From NCBI GenBank assembly GCA_020216805.1, contig JAIWNN010000116.1, positions 1 through 14,154 on the forward strand: a stretch of DNA of 14,154 nucleotides, in the 5' to 3' direction. Position numbers and translations under genes: made by a program. Below, in pieces: positions 1,009 through 14,154 of the stretch. The notes below the pieces were generated by a model, which did no database searches, had not been told where the DNA came from, and saw only the letters and a program-made list of their open reading frames with translations. The DNA comes from Desulfarculus sp. (GTDB taxonomy: Bacteria > Desulfobacterota > Desulfarculia > Desulfarculales > Desulfarculaceae). The stretch's first letter is position 1. Each line of letters starts with the position of its first letter.

Positions 1009-2225
1009 TTCCCGAGCGGGATGCTGGCCACGCCCTGCGGGTCTGCCACGTCATCACCACCACCGAGCGGGGAGGGGCCGAGACCCAGCTTCTGCGCCTG
1101 GTGGAAGCCCTGGGGCCGCCGCAGCACCGGCACCAGGTGATCTGCCTGCGGCCGGAGGGCGAGCTGGCCGGGCCCCTGCGCGCGGCCGGGGCCCAGGTCA
1201 CGGCCCTGAACCTGCGCCCCAGCCTGGGGGCGCTGGTGGGCGGGGCGCGGGCGTTGCGCCGGATCGTGGCCCAATCCGATCCCCACCTGGTGCAGACCTG
1301 GCTCTACCACGCCGACCTGCTGGGGGCCCTGGCGGTCTGGAAGCGACCCTTGGTCTGGGGCCTGCGCAACTCGGACCTGGATCTCTCGCGCCACGCCTGG
1401 ACCACCCGGGCGGTGGTGCGGGCCTGCGCGCTCCTCGCCCGGCGGCCCCGGGTCATCGTGGCCAACTCCCAGGCCGGGGCGCGGCTGCACCAGGACCTGG
1501 GCTATCCGGCCCGGAAGATGCGGATCATCCCCAACGGCTTCGACTGCGACCGTCACCGACCCGACCCGGCCGAGCGCGTCCGGCGGCGGGCGGAGCTGGG
1601 GCTGGACCATGACGCGTTGCTGGTGGGGATGGTGGCCCGCTTCGACCCGGCCAAGGACCACGCCGGCTTCCTGGACGCGGCCCGGGTCCTGGCCGGCCGG
1701 CTGCCCCGGGTGCGCTTCCTGCTCATCGGCAAGGGAGTCACCGCGGACAACCCGGCCCTGGCCGGGTGCGCCGCCCCGCCCCTGGCCGGGCGCTGCCATC
1801 TGCTGGGACCGCGCGACGACGTCCCGGCCTGGCTCAACGCCCTGGATCTGTATCTGCAAAGCTCGCGCAGCGAGGGGATGCCCAACGCCCTGGGCGAGGC
1901 CATGGCCAGCGCGGTGCCCTGCGTGGCCACCGACGCCGGCGACACCCGGCTGTTGTTGGGCGATTGCGGGCTGGTGACGCCCCCCGGCCAACCCTACGCC
2001 CTGGCCGAGGCCGCGGCCATGATCTTGGAACTGCCGGCGGCCCTGCGGGCCGGGCTGGGCGCGGAGGCGCGGGAGCGCATCCGGCGGCGTTTTTCCCTGG
2101 AGAGCATGGCCCGGGCCTTCGCCGAGCTCTATGGCGAGCTGGGCGGAACCACTTCCAGGCGATCCACCAGCACCGCGCAAACTCGCTCCGGACAGGCGGA
2201 CCAGACCAGCTCCAGCGAGTGTTGA
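1005..2225 (+). CDS. GT4-family (group 1) glycosyltransferase
   Basis: This 406-aa protein has the GT-B fold of retaining glycosyltransferases. The N-terminal acceptor domain begins with HVITTTERGGAETQLLRL (from residue 15), a Gly-Gly-Ala-Glu loop typical of family 4. IPNGFD (175-180) and GMVARFDPAKDH (about 207) mark the linker and the second Rossmann domain. The donor-site E-x7-E motif is E290...E298 inside SEGMPNALGEAMA. It probably adds a sugar from a nucleotide donor to a surface polysaccharide or lipid intermediate at the inner face of the membrane; the substrate is unknown. The ATG at 1005 overlaps the sirtuin stop and has a GGGGGAG ribosome site 8 bases upstream. Family homology ends near residue 382. 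The last 24 or so residues are a Ser/Thr/Arg/Gln-rich tail encoded opposite the 3' end of the convergent membrane-protein gene, so the native stop may have been lost. Confidence 0.93.
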   Translation: MIPERDAGHALRVCHVITTTERGGAETQLLRLVEALGPPQHRHQVICLRPEGELAGPLRAAGAQVTALNLRPSLGALVGGARALRRIVAQSDPHLVQTWLYHADLLGALAVWKRPLVWGLRNSDLDLSRHAWTTRAVVRACALLARRPRVIVANSQAGARLHQDLGYPARKMRIIPNGFDCDRHRPDPAERVRRRAELGLDHDALLVGMVARFDPAKDHAGFLDAARVLAGRLPRVRFLLIGKGVTADNPALAGCAAPPLAGRCHLLGPRDDVPAWLNALDLYLQSSRSEGMPNALGEAMASAVPCVATDAGDTRLLLGDCGLVTPPGQPYALAEAAAMILELPAALRAGLGAEARERIRRRFSLESMARAFAELYGELGGTTSRRSTSTAQTRSGQADQTSSSEC

Positions 2226-4489
2226 CCCCGGGGCACCTCACCCAGGGGGACTTCCAGGTCATGATAACGGTCCCGCCAGGGGAAGCGATACACAACCCCG
2301 CCATCCAGCACGATGCTCACCTCGCCCGGGCGGCCGGGCTTGCCCACCACCCGCAGCCCGGCCTCGCCGCCGGGGAAGAACAGCCGCCCCTGCAGCCGCC
2401 CGCCGTCCATCAGCACCGCCCCGCGCACGGTGTTGGGATAGACGTATTCCACGTATAGGCTGCCCCCGGAGACCCGCATCTGCTCGGCCTCCACGAAGGT
2501 CGGCGGCCAGAGCCGGGCCGCGCCCAGCCCCGCCGCCAAGAGCAGCAGCACGGCCAAGGCCAGGGCCGAGAGTTCGGTTCCGCTCCAGGCGGCCGGCGGC
2601 GGAGCGGCCGCGGCGGCGGGTCGTTCGGGAGCGGCCGGGGCTTCCGCCCGGGCCAGCCGCCGCCAGATCAACAGACCCAAGCCGGTGACGATCACGGCCA
2701 GCCCCAGGGTCCAGGGCTTGAACGCCGGGGAGCGGGTGAAGGCGCTGGGCAGCAGGTGGTGCAGGTCCAGGCCCAGGTTGTCCTGCAAACCCCGCAGCAG
2801 GGGGTTCACTCCCAGGGGCGGGGAGTAGCGGGCCTGGGCCACCAAGGTGGCCAGCCAGGCGTAGAGCAGGGTCTGGCTGGCTGGCAGCCAGGCCAGGAGC
2901 CGCAGCCAGGGGCGGTCCAGGGCCGAGAAGGCCAGCCCCAGGAACAGGGCCAGGGGCGGCAGGGCGGCGGCCAGGAAGCGGGCCGGGCCGGCAAAGCCGC
3001 CGTACCACTGGAACCAGCGGGTGTAGCAGAGCACCGCCAGGTAGATGACCAGGGGGACCAGGACTTGGAGGCTGGGCCGCAGGCGCAAGCGCAGTCCGGC
3101 CGGAATCCCGGCCAAGGCCAGAACGAAAACCGGGGCTACCACCGCCAGGCCGAAGGTCTGGTCCAGGGCCACTCCCCGCAAAAGGATCAGGATCGGCTGC
3201 AGGGGATGGCCGGCCCGCTCCAGGTTCCAGCGCAGGACGTCCACCTGGCTCCAGACCCAGCCCGGCCACCATTCCCGGGGCAACCACAGGGCCATCGCCC
3301 CGGCCAGCAGCACCAGCCCGACGGCGAGCGCGCCCACCAAGCCCCAGCCCAGGCGGCGGGCCAGCAACTGGCAACCACCCAGGAGCAGCAGCCCGCCGGC
3401 CAAGGGTGCCAGCCGGCCCTTGACCACCATCAGCAGCACCGCGCAGAGCACCAACCCCGCGCCCCTGAGCCAGGGGGAGTCCTCCAGGCGCAGGAGCAGG
3501 CGCAGCCCCACCATCAGCAGCAGCATGCCCACGGTGTCGGGAAAGACCTGCTGGCTGATCAGGAGCACCGGAGCGGAGAGCAGGGTCAGGCCCGCGGCGG
3601 CGGCGGCCGGGCCGGGGCGCAGGCGGCATTCGGAGAGCCAGGCCAGCAGTTGGCCGGCGGTGAGCGCCAGGATCGCGGCCAGCAATAGCAGCACCCCCAG
3701 GCGGCCGCCCAGCCAATAGGCGGGCGTGATCAACCAGGGAAAGACGCCTCCGGCGTGCCGGGTGGAAAAAGCCAGCTCCGGGGACCAGCGCGCCCAGTAG
3801 AACGACCGATACTCCTGGTCCTTGGCCGCCTGGGACACGTCGCTGGTGGCGTGGCGGGCCAGGCTGTGGGCGATGAGCAGATAGCCCACCTCGTCGCTGG
3901 CCGAGGACAGGGCCTGGTGGCTCCAGCCGGCCAACGGCCCCAACAGGGCCAGGCCCACCAGGAAGACCGCCAACTGCCGGCGCGGGCCCAGCCCCTCTCC
4001 CGGCTCCATCCCCTGGACCAGGAAACCCCGCCACAACACCCAGACCAGGAGCCCGCCCTTGGCCGCGGCCAGGCCCAGGTAGGCCAGGCCCAGGGCGGCC
4101 AGACCATTGCCCAGCTCGCGCCAAACCAGGGGCAGGGCCAGGAAGGCGGGCAGGGTCAGGTAGCTGTAGGCGTCCAGGCGCAGGGCGCGGCGGGCGGGGC
4201 GGGACTCGGCCCGGGAGCCGGGCCAGAGGAAAAGGAGCAGGTCCAGCACCAGGCTGGGCAGCCAGACCACCAGGGGCGGGGCCAGGCTGACAAACAGGCG
4301 CAGGCCCTCCGGCCGCGCCACCGCCGCCAGGGCCCCTTCCTGGGCCAAGTCGGGCAGGCCCAGGTGCTCCCACATCAGCCAGATCAAGACCGACCCCAGG
4401 GCCGCGGTCAACAGCCCCAGGCCCAGGTGCTGGCCCAACAGGGCCAACCCCGGCCAGGGGTCGGTCGCGGTCTTCCCCGCCTCCGACAC
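2129..4489 (-). CDS. Large multi-pass membrane protein, GT-C glycosyltransferase-like, with C-terminal beta-rich domain
   Basis: This 786-aa protein has roughly a dozen hydrophobic segments between residues 15 and about 655. After the early helices comes a loop with an acidic pair in SASDEVGYLLIAHSLA (D199, E200), then a soluble stretch rich in Trp, Tyr and Arg. This is the layout of GT-C enzymes (ArnT/PMT/GT39-like), whose first periplasmic loop carries catalytic acids and which use polyprenyl-phosphate sugars. The 125 or so residues from 661 on are hydrophilic and beta-strand-like, probably a periplasmic domain. Start: a GTG at 4489-4487, preceded by GGGAGGGG at good spacing. The 3' end overlaps the convergent glycosyltransferase by 97 bp; the final 31 residues here (L-V-W-S-A-C ... 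V-D-R-L-E-V) look like an ordinary beta domain. Related membrane families without enzymatic activity are possible. The donor and acceptor cannot be read from the sequence. Confidence 0.85.
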   Translation of the reverse strand: MSEAGKTATDPWPGLALLGQHLGLGLLTAALGSVLIWLMWEHLGLPDLAQEGALAAVARPEGLRLFVSLAPPLVVWLPSLVLDLLLFLWPGSRAESRPARRALRLDAYSYLTLPAFLALPLVWRELGNGLAALGLAYLGLAAAKGGLLVWVLWRGFLVQGMEPGEGLGPRRQLAVFLVGLALLGPLAGWSHQALSSASDEVGYLLIAHSLARHATSDVSQAAKDQEYRSFYWARWSPELAFSTRHAGGVFPWLITPAYWLGGRLGVLLLLAAILALTAGQLLAWLSECRLRPGPAAAAAGLTLLSAPVLLISQQVFPDTVGMLLLMVGLRLLLRLEDSPWLRGAGLVLCAVLLMVVKGRLAPLAGGLLLLGGCQLLARRLGWGLVGALAVGLVLLAGAMALWLPREWWPGWVWSQVDVLRWNLERAGHPLQPILILLRGVALDQTFGLAVVAPVFVLALAGIPAGLRLRLRPSLQVLVPLVIYLAVLCYTRWFQWYGGFAGPARFLAAALPPLALFLGLAFSALDRPWLRLLAWLPASQTLLYAWLATLVAQARYSPPLGVNPLLRGLQDNLGLDLHHLLPSAFTRSPAFKPWTLGLAVIVTGLGLLIWRRLARAEAPAAPERPAAAAAPPPAAWSGTELSALALAVLLLLAAGLGAARLWPPTFVEAEQMRVSGGSLYVEYVYPNTVRGAVLMDGGRLQGRLFFPGGEAGLRVVGKPGRPGEVSIVLDGGVVYRFPWRDRYHDLEVPLGEVPRGQHSLELVWSACPERVCAVLVDRLEVVPPSSP

Positions 4490-7236: not shown

Positions 7237-7433
7237 GCCTTCTCTTTAGATAAGGAAAAGTTTGATCAAGGTGCAAAATTAGCTCCTTTAGGGAATGTTC
7301 GTTTCAGAAAGAATCGTTTAATCTGATATCTGACGATGTGGCCGATCGCAGCAGGGTTTGTCTTCGCCGCAGTCAGCCACAAAGTAGATTGGCCCTCTTA
7401 AAACAAAGTTCCTGTAATTATAAGGAGTTAGCC
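7237..7433 (+). other. AT-richer leader region upstream of the small Tyr-rich ORF
   Basis: About 197 bp between the CoA-transferase stop and the small ORF are visibly AT-richer than the flanking genes. No intact gene is present. I found no convincing -35/-10 pair, and a search by eye for a GEMM c-di-GMP riboswitch core was negative. One weak inverted pair, TGTGGC (7337-7342) and GCCACA (7376-7381), encloses a 33-nt segment and might form a long-loop hairpin. A promoter for the small ORF presumably lies here. Confidence 0.4.
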
Positions 7434-7631
7434 ATGAGCACAAATGATCCCTTCATCAGAGACAGTTACAACTACCACACGAGCAATGGTACTTACGAAA
7501 CTACCTACACTACTTCTATGGCGGTCGGAGCTGACCAGGCACGACTCGGTTACTCCTGCTCGCCTCAACAACACTACGAATCGTATACTGAGTACAACAA
7601 CCGGCTTCTTGGCTACAATAATAACAAATAA
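7434..7631 (+). CDS. Small Tyr/Asn/Thr-rich protein of unknown function (65 aa)
   Basis: I do not recognise this protein. Of 65 residues, 9 are Tyr (12, 14, 21, 25, 40, 48, 51, 54, 61), 8 Asn, 8 Thr and 7 Ser, with a single Cys42 and a C-terminal YNNNK. It is hydrophilic, with no signal peptide or membrane helix, and looks like a low-complexity, possibly disordered polypeptide. Support for a real gene: a strong ribosome site (AAGGAG, 6 bases before ATG) and a strong intrinsic terminator whose stem begins seven bases after the TAA. Codons are AT-richer than those of every neighbouring gene (for example AAT, ACT, AGA), suggesting recent acquisition. An in-frame extension upstream to 7338 has no ribosome site. 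Alternatives are a leader peptide, a toxin, a peptide-natural-product precursor or a regulatory RNA with a chance ORF. Confidence 0.6.
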   Translation: MSTNDPFIRDSYNYHTSNGTYETTYTTSMAVGADQARLGYSCSPQQHYESYTEYNNRLLGYNNNK

Positions 7632-7637
7632 TTTATC

Positions 7638-7678
7638 GTGTGATTCAAAGGGTTTCCCGTCCTTTGAATCACACTTTT
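7638..7678 (+). terminator. Strong Rho-independent terminator after the small Tyr-rich ORF
   Basis: A perfect 14-bp stem, GTGTGATTCAAAGG (7638-7651) with CCTTTGAATCACAC (7661-7674), closes a 9-base loop and runs directly into TTTT (7675-7678). It starts seven bases after the TAA of the small ORF. It is the clearest intrinsic terminator in the window and could insulate the small gene from the HD-GYP gene downstream. The stem is symmetric and A-rich before the opposite side, so some activity on the minus strand is possible. Confidence 0.85.
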
Positions 7679-7875
7679 CAGTTAACACAAGGGTCTATAA
7701 ACTCAACTCACGAATAATGCTGTCACGTTGATTCTTAGCTCACCAATCTTCAACGACATTCCGGTGACATCTTCCGCCCGTTGCCGCGCGGTCATGCGGC
7801 CGTAATCATTTCCGGCTAAGGTGGACTCACGCCGAGGTTGGCGTCTGCCCTCCAACCTTAAGCTGGAAGCATCCC
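7679..7875 (+). other. Intergenic region upstream of the HD-GYP gene
   Basis: Nearly 200 bp separate the terminator from the HD-GYP start. The first 80 bp are AT-rich like the small-gene island; GC content then rises toward the coding region. A TATAAA near 7693 lacks a well-spaced -35 element, so I do not call a promoter. The only structure I can support is the hairpin just before the start codon, listed separately. Confidence 0.4.
7834..7859 (+). promoter_or_regulatory. Leader hairpin just upstream of the HD-GYP start codon
   Basis: AGGTTGG (7835-7841) and CCAACCT (7852-7858) form a 7-bp stem with a 10-base loop, extendable by one G-U pair. It ends 17 bases before the ATG at 7876. There is no U-tract, so it is not a canonical terminator; it could affect translation of the HD-GYP message. 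The repeat is seen directly; the function is inference. Confidence 0.35.
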
Positions 7876-11413: not shown

Positions 11414-12613
11414 TCAATCTTCTCGCCGGTCGGGATATAGCAAAAAAGATAGCACCCTTTTTCGCCAGGCCGCCAGCCCCGGCCGCCACCGCGGCTCGAT
11501 CGCGGCGAAAAACTCCCCTCTTTGCAGCCGGTTGGCCGCATCCGGATCGCCCAGGAGCAGGTCCAGGGGTCGGCGGACGTGCTCGTATTCATAGGGCGGG
11601 GGGCGGAAGTCCCAGAGCCCGGGGTGGACCCGGTTGATGGCCGACAGGAGCGCGCAGGTCAGGCGCAGGGGGCGGAAGAGGTCCGGGTCGGTGACATGGA
11701 TCTGCCAGCCGCCACAGGTCAGCCCGGCGTGCTTGTGGAAGGTGGGCTCGAAAAAAAGCGGCCGGAGCCGGCAGCCGGCCAGGGCGTATTCCTCCACCGC
11801 CTCGGCCACCGCCCAGGGGTCCACCCCCGGCCCGCCGCTGATCTCGAAGGGCCGGGTGGTGCCGCGCCCCTCGCTCAGGGTGGTCCCCTCCAGGAGCACC
11901 TGGCCGGGATAGACCCGGGCGCTGTCCAGGGTGGGCAGGTTGGGGCTGGGCAACACCCAAGGCAGGCCGGTGGTGGCCAGATCCCCGCCGGTCCAGCCCT
12001 GGGCCTGGATCACCCGCAGGTCCAGGTCCAGGCCGCGCTCGGCCACCACCAGCCGGGCCAGCTCGCCCAGGGTCAGGCCGTGGCGCAGGGGCATGGGGTG
12101 GGGGCCCACGAAGCTCATCAACTCCGGGGGCAGGATCGGCCCCTCCTCGCCCCGGCCCAGAGGGTTGGGGCGGTCCAGCACCCAGACCGCCACCCCGGCC
12201 CCGGCGCACTGCTCCAGGCAGGCCACCAGGGTGGTGAAGAAGGTGTAGACCCGGCAGCCCACGTCGATCAGATCCACCAGGAGCACGTCCAGGCCAGCCA
12301 ACATCTCCGGGGTGGGGCGGCGGGTGTCGCCATACAGCGACCAAATCGGCAGGCCCAGGCGGGGGTGAATGGCGTGGGCGCTCTCCACCATGTTGTCCTG
12401 CTTGTCGGCGAAAAACCCGTGCTGGGGGCCGAAGATGGCCTTGAGGCGGCCGGGCAGGGCCCGGGCCACCGCCTCCGGGGCCGGGGTCAGGTCGGGCAGG
12501 ACCGCGGCCGGGTTGGATAAGAGGCCCAACCTGGCCCGGGCCAGGTCGGCCGGGGGTTGGGCGGCCAGGCGGGCCAGGCCGGTGGACACGCGGGGCTGAT
12601 CGGGGACGGACAT
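11414..12613 (-). CDS. DUF1343 / NamZ-type exo-beta-N-acetylmuramidase (GH171)
   Basis: This 399-aa protein carries the whole DUF1343 signature: LLSNPAAV (31-38), FGPQHGFFADKQDNMVES (61-78), SLYGDTRRPT (92-101), DLIDVGCRVYTF (114-125), LDRPNPLG (146-153), SFVG (167-170), SPNLPTLDSARVYPG (223-237) and EGTTLSEGRGTTRPFE (242-257). NamZ enzymes remove terminal N-acetylmuramic acid from peptidoglycan fragments, supporting wall turnover or recycling. Known members are often exported, but this N-terminus (MSVPDQPRVSTGLARL) has no signal peptide, so it should act in the cytoplasm unless the start is misplaced. Start: ATG at 12613-12611, with a weak AAGGG site. It is divergent from the diguanylate cyclase across 170 bp, and 143 bp precede the next gene on the same strand, so membership of one operon with the glycosyltransferase is possible but not certain. 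Confidence 0.93.
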   Translation of the reverse strand: MSVPDQPRVSTGLARLAAQPPADLARARLGLLSNPAAVLPDLTPAPEAVARALPGRLKAIFGPQHGFFADKQDNMVESAHAIHPRLGLPIWSLYGDTRRPTPEMLAGLDVLLVDLIDVGCRVYTFFTTLVACLEQCAGAGVAVWVLDRPNPLGRGEEGPILPPELMSFVGPHPMPLRHGLTLGELARLVVAERGLDLDLRVIQAQGWTGGDLATTGLPWVLPSPNLPTLDSARVYPGQVLLEGTTLSEGRGTTRPFEISGGPGVDPWAVAEAVEEYALAGCRLRPLFFEPTFHKHAGLTCGGWQIHVTDPDLFRPLRLTCALLSAINRVHPGLWDFRPPPYEYEHVRRPLDLLLGDPDAANRLQRGEFFAAIEPRWRPGLAAWRKRVLSFLLYPDRRED

Positions 12614-12633
12614 GCCGCTGGCCCTTTTCAGAT

Positions 12634-12642
12634 TGGTATAAA
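12634..12642 (+). promoter_or_regulatory. Candidate extended -10 promoter for the diguanylate cyclase gene
   Basis: TGGTATAAA is a TG-N-TATAAA extended -10 element (five of six -10 bases match TATAAT); no good -35 is visible. Transcription would begin near 12650, giving a leader of about 134 nt to the ATG at 12784. That leader contains a CCCGC/GCGGG hairpin around position 12720. I saw no c-di-GMP riboswitch core in it. Confidence 0.4.
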
Positions 12643-13057
12643 AGCTCTAGAATGAAAAACCACCATTGCGATCACCGCAGTATAAGCCGCTCCCCGTTCT
12701 CGCTCAAGGCCAGCCCGCCGGCGCGGGGGGAGCACTTCCCTCGCGATCGTTTCGCCCCGGCGGTCACGACCAGGCAGGAAACCATGGACCTGGACATCCG
12801 CACCCTCCTGCTGGCCATGATTGTGCTCCAGTTGGCCATCGGTCTGGCGATGCTGGTCTTTTGGCGCACCCAGAAGGTCTTCCCCGGTTTCGGCTACGTC
12901 GCCCTCTGCAACCTGGTGATGGCCGGCGCCTATCTGATGCTGGGCCTGCGCGGGGTGATTCCCCTGTGGCTGTCGGTGCTGGGCGGCAACCTGCTCCTGG
13001 CCCTGGGCGGCCTCTGGCGCTGGCTGGGGGTTCGCATCTTTTGGGGCCGGACCGGCC

Positions 13058-14101
13058 ATGGCCTGCCGCTCTATCTTCTGCCTCTGGCGGTGGGGCTATT
13101 TACTTGGCAAACAAGCCATCGGCCGCTACGGCCTGCCGCTCTATCTTCTGCCTCTGGCGGTGGGGCTGGGTTGCGCCTATTTCCTTTTCGCGCAGAGCAG
13201 CCTGGCCTGGCGCAATCTGGTCCTGACCCTGGGTCTGCTGCCCATGCTCCTGAACCTGACCTGGCTGATGCTCCAGGCCCGGGTGGGCGAGAACCGGTCC
13301 CTGTTGCGGATGGCGGCGGCGACGACCCTGGGTTTTGGGATCCTGATGCTGGGGCGGGCCGCGGCGCTCTTCGCCTGGGACCAGGAGGTCGACGACCTGC
13401 TCCGCGCCGCTCCGCCCTGGCAGGGCGGGCACTATTTCGCCCTTTTTTTCATGGAGGTTTTCTGGAACCTGGTCTTCGTGATGATCAACAACCAGCGCCT
13501 GGGCAACCAGTTGCGCGAAACCCAGGATGAGCTGGCCCGTCTGGCCTCCACCGACCCCCTGACCGGGATCCTCAACCGGCGCAGCCTGCTGCTCGCCGGC
13601 GAGCGGGAATTCCTCCGCGCCAGCCGCTATGGCCGCCCCCTGGCCGTGCTGGCCATGGACCTGGACCACTTCAAGCAGGTCAACGACCGATTGGGCCACG
13701 CCGCCGGCGACCGGGTCCTGGTGGCCCTGGCCCGGGTTCTCCAGGGGCAACTGCGGGCCAGCGACGCCCTGGGGCGGGTGGGTGGCGACGAGTTCATCGC
13801 CCTGTTGCCGGAGACGGTGCTGGAAGGCGCCCGCCGGGTGGCCGAACGCCTGCGCCAGGCCGCCGACCAGGAGCTGCGCCAGGTGTTGGGCGGCCAAGAT
13901 CTGGCGCTGAGCCTCAGCGTGGGCATCAGCGTCTCCCACCCCGAGGACGCCAGCCTGGACGAGCTGCTGGAGCGGGCCGATCTGGCCCTCTACGAGGCCA
14001 AGCAATCCGGCCGCAATTGCCAGGTCGGCGTGGAACGGGTCCAGACCGCGGGCGCGGACCCGTCGCCGGACCAAGCGGGGGCCGCCCCGGCGCTGGCCTG
14101 A
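13058..14101 (+). CDS. GGDEF-domain diguanylate cyclase, C-terminal part as encoded
   Basis: This is the longest intact frame of the disrupted gene: 347 aa from an ATG at 13058. The first 23 residues or so (MACRSIFCLWRWGYLLGKQAI) are mostly out-of-frame readings of the repeat, so the initiation site is doubtful; no good ribosome site precedes it. About four hydrophobic segments follow (near 24-42, 52-72, 84-110, 125-145), then a linker NNQRLGNQLRETQDELARLA and a complete GGDEF domain: STDPLTGILNRRSLLL, AMDLDHFKQVNDRLGHAAGD, VGGDEF (GGDEF at 242-246) and the C-terminal ADLALYEAKQSGRNCQ. The product inhibition site Arg-Ala-Ser-Asp lies five residues before GGDEF, so the enzyme should make c-di-GMP from two GTP and be feedback inhibited. 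If translated alone it would lack the first three helices. Confidence 0.85.
   Translation: MACRSIFCLWRWGYLLGKQAIGRYGLPLYLLPLAVGLGCAYFLFAQSSLAWRNLVLTLGLLPMLLNLTWLMLQARVGENRSLLRMAAATTLGFGILMLGRAAALFAWDQEVDDLLRAAPPWQGGHYFALFFMEVFWNLVFVMINNQRLGNQLRETQDELARLASTDPLTGILNRRSLLLAGEREFLRASRYGRPLAVLAMDLDHFKQVNDRLGHAAGDRVLVALARVLQGQLRASDALGRVGGDEFIALLPETVLEGARRVAERLRQAADQELRQVLGGQDLALSLSVGISVSHPEDASLDELLERADLALYEAKQSGRNCQVGVERVQTAGADPSPDQAGAAPALA
13060..13097 (+). repeat. Direct repeat copy 1 (38 bp) in the diguanylate cyclase gene
   Basis: These 38 bases are identical to 13130-13167, at an offset of 70 bp. The bases just outside each copy differ (13059 T against 13129 C; 13098 A against 13168 G), so the repeat is exactly 38 bp. 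In the first gene frame this copy encodes GLPLYLLPLAVG. Confidence 0.95.
13130..13167 (+). repeat. Direct repeat copy 2 (38 bp) in the diguanylate cyclase gene
   Basis: This is the second, identical copy. Read in the frame of the GGDEF domain it encodes the same peptide as copy 1 does in the upstream frame. Only 38 of the 70 bases are duplicated, so this is not a simple 70-bp tandem duplication. Confidence 0.95.
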
Positions 14102-14154
14102 ACCGGAACCGCTCCCGCCCCGCCCGCGCCCCCCGCCCGTCGTGGGGCCCATGC
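14102..14154. other. End of window: no feature
   Basis: The last 53 bp after the GGDEF stop are very C-rich and show no start codon with a ribosome site, no hairpin with a U-tract and no recognisable gene start. Confidence 0.5.

Follow-up and report, generated by a model that had tools for sequence, protein, structure and literature searches.

A 38-bp direct repeat with a 32-bp spacer breaks the reading frame of a membrane diguanylate cyclase gene in a draft assembly of Desulfarculus sp.

Introduction

Partial tandem duplications with inserted filler arise by replication slippage or template switching, and reversible repeat switches keep their repeats after each slip. Close short repeats recombine without RecA (PMC8047081), and in wrinkly spreaders of Pseudomonas fluorescens repeats of 6, 8 and 10 bp mediate deletions under selection, in-frame for awsX and mwsR (PMC6324874). 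Neo-CRISPR loci, which stem from non-canonical spacer integration (Nivala et al. 2018, as cited in PMC9456107 and PMC11788318), are repeat-spacer-repeat structures with a spacer of ~32 bp, lying outside an array. Here, we describe a direct repeat in a diguanylate cyclase gene of Desulfarculus sp. that invites comparison with each of these systems.

The locus resembles frame-breaking partial tandem duplications with filler in having a short direct repeat of gene sequence with its junction in the coding frame, and in being known, within the searches made, from a single genome; it differs in that its 32-bp filler has no template among the sequences searched. With the P. fluorescens wrinkly spreaders it shares direct repeats in c-di-GMP signalling genes; there a deletion changes the output (PMC6324874), whereas here the repeat is longer and comes with an insertion, and no deletion is seen. 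It is like neo-CRISPR loci in its geometry, spacer length and position outside an array, and unlike them in that the resident array differs from it in both repeat length and period and that neither a protospacer (IMG/VR, phages, plasmids) nor cas1 (own assembly) was found. Among the papers returned by literature searches on neo-CRISPR, repeat deletion, phase variation of diguanylate cyclases with a direct repeat, and template switching, none deals with the locus in its title or the opening of its abstract.

Methods

The window is the whole stretch of DNA that was analysed, 14,154 nucleotides (forward strand; GenBank assembly GCA_020216805.1, contig JAIWNN010000116.1), and constitutes an entire contig (C66) of a draft of 171 contigs that is 54.95% complete. 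Proteins were searched for in a collection of ~5.8 billion (7995 candidates scored; best 120 of 5494 examined), and orthologs were compared at the protein level. Direct repeats were surveyed in 64 pieces from 63 of the 171 contigs (676,879 bases, 37% of the assembly) as exact matches of at least 24 bp within 300 bp.

Results

A membrane diguanylate cyclase gene occupies positions 12784 to 14101 of the window. Within it lies a 38-bp direct repeat (A; 38/38 bases identical) at 13060-13097 and 13130-13167, with a period of 70 bp and a 32-bp spacer (S, 13098-13129) between the two copies, the second of which ends at position 13167. The features of the region are as follows.

12784..13097 (+): first 104 codons of the diguanylate cyclase gene, read in the native frame and covering the initial hydrophobic stretches up to the beginning of a further one, from hydropathy and collinearity with P0002-P0005
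13010..13032 (+): imperfect 23-bp copy (18/23) of 13150-13172, 140 bp apart as assembled and 70 bp apart in the uninterrupted order, from self-comparison
13060..13097 (+): first copy of A, in the native frame, an exact match to 13130-13167
13098..13129 (+): S, 32 bp, 50% G+C against 68% in the assembly sample, no source found in sequence searches
13130..13167 (+): second copy of A, native in the downstream frame, an exact match to 13060-13097
13168..14101 (+): rest of the diguanylate cyclase gene, with further hydrophobic stretches and the GGDEF domain, within the 347-aa frame, from PF00990 and orthologs
14076..14154 (no strand): 3' end of the contig, 79 bp that recur without change at the start of contig C87, from contig comparison

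Adding the five bases 5' of A lengthens the match to 43 bp at 95% identity. An exact match of 38 bases is far beyond chance, and nowhere else in the window are 20 exact bases repeated in direct orientation. The shift of 70 equals 1 modulo 3; the upstream frame, which opens at ATG 12784 with AGGA 5' of it, runs for 248 aa to a stop at 13528, and its first 104 codons are native. The GGDEF frame is open throughout, from ATG 13058 to 14101 (347 aa), and by eye no ribosome-binding-like bases were seen 5' of its ATG. PF00990 matches residues 163-320 of the 347-aa frame (E 2.1e-44; 151.6 bits against a curated cut-off of 23.8), and a simple hydropathy count gives four hydrophobic stretches in addition to GGDEF. 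The GGDEF motif is visible in the translation with RxxD five residues before it; the two together we take to be an intact diguanylate cyclase signature. The gene retains the GGDEF domain of a diguanylate cyclase and lacks the continuous full-length frame of its relatives. Judged from the sequence, it is conceivable that the broken gene still yields some product from the 347-aa frame, with its GGDEF domain and four hydrophobic stretches. The initial annotation had reported a 38-bp exact repeat with a 70-bp period that breaks the diguanylate cyclase frame, and its coordinates and frames were confirmed.

Among the best 120 of 5494 proteins, the 347-aa protein has a single member, on one contig of the window's own length, and the next protein is 86% identical. 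The same 120 include four close full-length orthologs, P0002 (417 aa), P0003 (414 aa), and P0004 and P0005 (413 aa each), with 74-86% identity to the 347-aa frame. At the protein level the insert is absent from all four, in which the site reads RIFWGR-x-x-x-x-L-x-LYLLPLAV. The uninterrupted order, that is, the gene without the 70 bp, is a 415-aa frame with a single terminal stop by codon count, and shares 375 identical residues with P0002 over an alignment with two gaps. The four orthologs also bear out the earlier description of the upstream frame as native before the repeat and of the downstream frame as native after it, and the seamless 415-aa frame that loss of one repeat plus the spacer was said to give is the form that all of them have.

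More distant relatives in four genomes (G005, G004, G002 and G007) and a paralog on contig C87 are single open frames of 421-442 codons that run through the site; the matches in G002 and G007 contain stops, which by coordinate comparison fall where those frames end and away from the insertion site. A scan of GTDB contigs for close orthologs returned only three relatives, all distant (32-33%). A class-wide search of 63 genomes (E <= 1e-60) gave matches in 5 of them, the own genome included, and none above 51% identity outside the window's own gene. Since the four full-length orthologs lack the insert, the short form is, on sequence grounds, ancestral and typical of the family; the 70 bp were either inserted later or are an artefact.

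The GGDEF gene has 11 matches in the draft. On contig C87, at about 245-1480, lies a second, intact membrane diguanylate cyclase in tandem (P0006, 411 aa, 55% to the 347-aa frame), and, provided that the two contigs truly join at their 79-bp overlap, ~220 bp separate its start from the end of the window's gene. Elsewhere in the window, positions 2130-4489 (-) encode a hydrophobic protein of 786 aa for which Pfam gave nothing at E 0.001. The interval 7338-7731, from an acetyl-CoA hydrolase-GNAT gene to an HD-domain gene, contains short overlapping frames only, one of them for a protein of 97 aa with abundant Tyr, Asn and Thr in its second half.

Just over half of the 70-bp insert, 38 bp, is the second copy of A. 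The remainder, S, has a G+C content of 50%, against 68% in a 22-piece sample of the assembly. Allowing up to 3 mismatches, a search of the own assembly (54.95% complete) returned only S itself, as did a search of 20 family genomes, own included (1/20). The 23-base core of S had no match in GTDB contigs (0) or IMG/VR contigs (0), and a wobble-tolerant query with free third positions gave 0, 0 and 0 in IMG/VR in its three phases. Searches against phages (blastn, 8 records, best E 0.9) and plasmids (37 records, E >= 3 for the best 20 of 37) returned chance-level matches. No local template of 10 to 12 bases was found in the window, and alignments of S with its flanks, with A and with the whole window were no better than shuffles (for flanks and A, 95 to 967 of 1000 shuffles reach the score); identity to the flanks is 28% (left) and 16%. 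The longest word that S shares with the 676,879 sampled bases of its own assembly is one of 14 bases, taken as chance. When the first 48 residues of the 347-aa frame, which span the S-A junction, served as a protein query, only the own protein was found (1 of 14 candidates). Beyond this locus, S is thus absent from everything searched; a copy could lie in the unassembled part of this 55%-complete draft.

Discussion

On balance, we somewhat favour an ordinary, private loss-of-function partial duplication whose filler came from a template switch in replication or repair. One private 70-bp event would have broken this gene, whose product is a membrane diguanylate cyclase with several helices: most likely an intermediate of replication or repair misaligned, perhaps on an imperfect repeat with a spacing of 70 bp, switched template for ~32 bases to give S, and then resumed at the start of A, with a frameshift that would part the first membrane stretches from the GGDEF domain. 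In the uninterrupted order, 13010-13032 and 13150-13172 (the 3' part of A plus its right flank; 18/23) stand exactly 70 bases apart, and an offset of 70 ranks first of 230 (offsets 20-249; score 13) in self-similarity around A. That the insert is exactly as long as this top-ranking offset is a hint of misalignment in replication or recombination; the offset-70 match was noticed before the ranking, which makes the rank post hoc, and scores of 13-16 occur at other offsets elsewhere in the gene. Plain slippage on the 70-bp imperfect repeat fits poorly: a second copy of the left flank would be expected, and S shares only 28% identity with that flank. Against a template switch, too, stands the fact that the template for S was not found in the sequences searched.

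Single-strand folds around the site were not significant over five pieces (z -1.40 to 0.37), and no Rfam family matched the window at gathering score. A consensus scan of 12600-14154 gave two promoter-like sites (0.1 expected), including one at 12625-12653 (+), upstream of the gene, and six terminator-like sites (1.0 expected), two of which lie inside the first copy of A and are treated as coincidences in coding sequence. If the 70 bp are real DNA, the insertion is probably recent because the gene shows no other break, and the broken gene is perhaps tolerated owing to the intact paralog directly downstream.

The main rival is a chimera of library or assembly, with the gene uninterrupted in the organism and the 70 bp produced by template switching in the library or by a wrong path through the assembly graph. 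We regard it as a serious possibility, albeit a doubtful one. The draft is fragmented (171 contigs, 54.95% complete); many of its contigs are exactly 10000 bp long, which suggests that contigs were cut for binning, and the last 79 bp of the window's contig equal the first 79 bp of C87. Such an end overlap would be the usual mark of de Bruijn assembly, and its length is perhaps the word length. The long form is on record in one assembly only (best 120 of 5494 proteins), and S is without a source in the sequences searched, both of which a chimera would accommodate. Against it, the contig continues across the site without interruption, a copy of A adjoining S at either end, and if the assembly word is indeed 79, longer than the 70-bp period, one word just spans nine flank bases, A and S, which mildly suggests that real reads lie behind the structure. 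The repeat survey, which returned 12 rows at the five places below, also speaks against it.

Place 1: the 38-bp repeat of the diguanylate cyclase gene
Place 2: a CRISPR array on contig C4 (6 rows)
Place 3: an intergenic 109-bp duplication on contig C87
Place 4: an in-frame 45-bp array on contig C60 (3 rows)
Place 5: a 24-bp pair on contig C75, 204 bp apart, in frame

An unrelated spacer of less than 100 bp occurs only in the diguanylate cyclase locus and the CRISPR array. Apart from that array, no similar short repeat-spacer-repeat was found in the surveyed 37% of the assembly, a sample that thus gives no hint of a systematic artefact. The repeat on C87 (49 bp exact, period 109) was considered as a parallel case and rejected: it is intergenic, its units are alike by eye over most of their length, its spacer has ungapped identities of 0.45 and 0.53 to the flanks, and it is taken as a plain intergenic duplication. 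This imperfect tandem duplication of ~109 bp occupies C87 4532-4689, between two genes; the 45-bp tandem repeats at C60 406-570 stand in frame within a long open frame.

The 38-32-38 geometry is like one repeat-spacer-repeat unit, and off-target CRISPR integration was examined for that reason. In such an event, Cas1-Cas2 would have inserted a foreign spacer of ~32-33 bp, and gap repair would have duplicated the target; we consider this improbable. Beyond the geometry, it draws on the G+C content of the spacer, which is lower than that of the genome sample, on a CRISPR array in the own genome (C4 1-295, with ~32-bp repeats, 34-35-bp spacers and a degenerate last repeat), and on genus member G004, whose cas1 contig bears an array with repeats of 37 bp and spacers of 34-36 bp, together with a second, less regular array. 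Integration outside arrays is reported upon Cas1-Cas2 overexpression (Nivala et al. 2018, as cited in PMC11788318) and in vitro into a plasmid without an array (PMC6895254).

The lengths argue against it. The duplication of 38 bp differs from the ~32-bp repeats of the own array, those of G004 being 37 bp long; S, at 32 bp, is shorter than the resident spacers, and the resident period is 66-67, not 70. A 32-bp duplication would need six chance matches to give 38, and in the systems studied, repeat length is held by a ruler mechanism (PMC6895254). The arrays of G002 and G003 have 31-33-bp repeats and 32-36-bp spacers. No cas1 was found in the own assembly (0/1; 55% complete), the gene being present in 3 of 6 genus genomes, own included; no foreign source was found for S, with no protospacer in IMG/VR and chance-level matches only in phages and plasmids, and it would go unexplained why the insert is just as long as the best self-repeat offset. 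The version in which the integrating module has 36-38-bp repeats and comes from the unassembled part of the genome, which would make Cas1-Cas2 a natural mutagen in the wild, is equally improbable in our view. In G004, the CRISPR arrays of contig C10 flank a cas1 match in a 761-codon open frame, possibly a fusion.

The initial annotation had gone on to suggest that repeat-mediated excision could make the gene a phase-variable on/off switch for a c-di-GMP enzyme. The comparison does not sustain this reading, and we judge such a phase-variable or reversible switch of c-di-GMP synthesis very unlikely. Its premise that a 38-bp repeat is long enough for excision is plausible in principle, in that repeats 70 bp apart could recombine without RecA (PMC8047081), and the same would be true of any such duplication; in P. 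fluorescens, moreover, genes of the c-di-GMP pathway undergo adaptive deletions between direct repeats that are short (PMC6324874). Losing one repeat, however, also deletes S, for which no second copy was found in the own assembly (55% complete) or in the other collections searched, so that excision looks one-way: a reversion that could happen at most once, not a switch. One form is on record (best 120 of 5494 proteins), and the repeat is not kept in relatives: the four close orthologs lack the insert at the protein level, and so nothing shows that selection keeps a switch.

That two homologous alleles were spliced, a diverged copy from another strain or a paralog having given S by unequal recombination or in assembly, is just as unlikely: the distance from the imperfect-repeat core to A is 36 bases in both the native gene and the insert, and S is open in the native frame with a best family match of LGKQAIGR to LGRPAAGR of P0009, but 32 of 500 shuffles equal that match, the first 48 residues of the 347-aa frame match only their own protein, and S does not recur in its own assembly at up to 3 mismatches.

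We thus return to the private partial duplication with filler. To all appearances the gene is no on/off switch but a copy damaged in an ordinary way, or possibly an error of assembly or library, and as found it matters little: one draft genome, with one broken copy among several GGDEF genes. The CRISPR reading, if true, would show from a natural case that host genes are mutated by spacer integration. For direct repeats of this kind the locus carries a caution, that a repeat around a frame break makes no switch unless both states can form each other.
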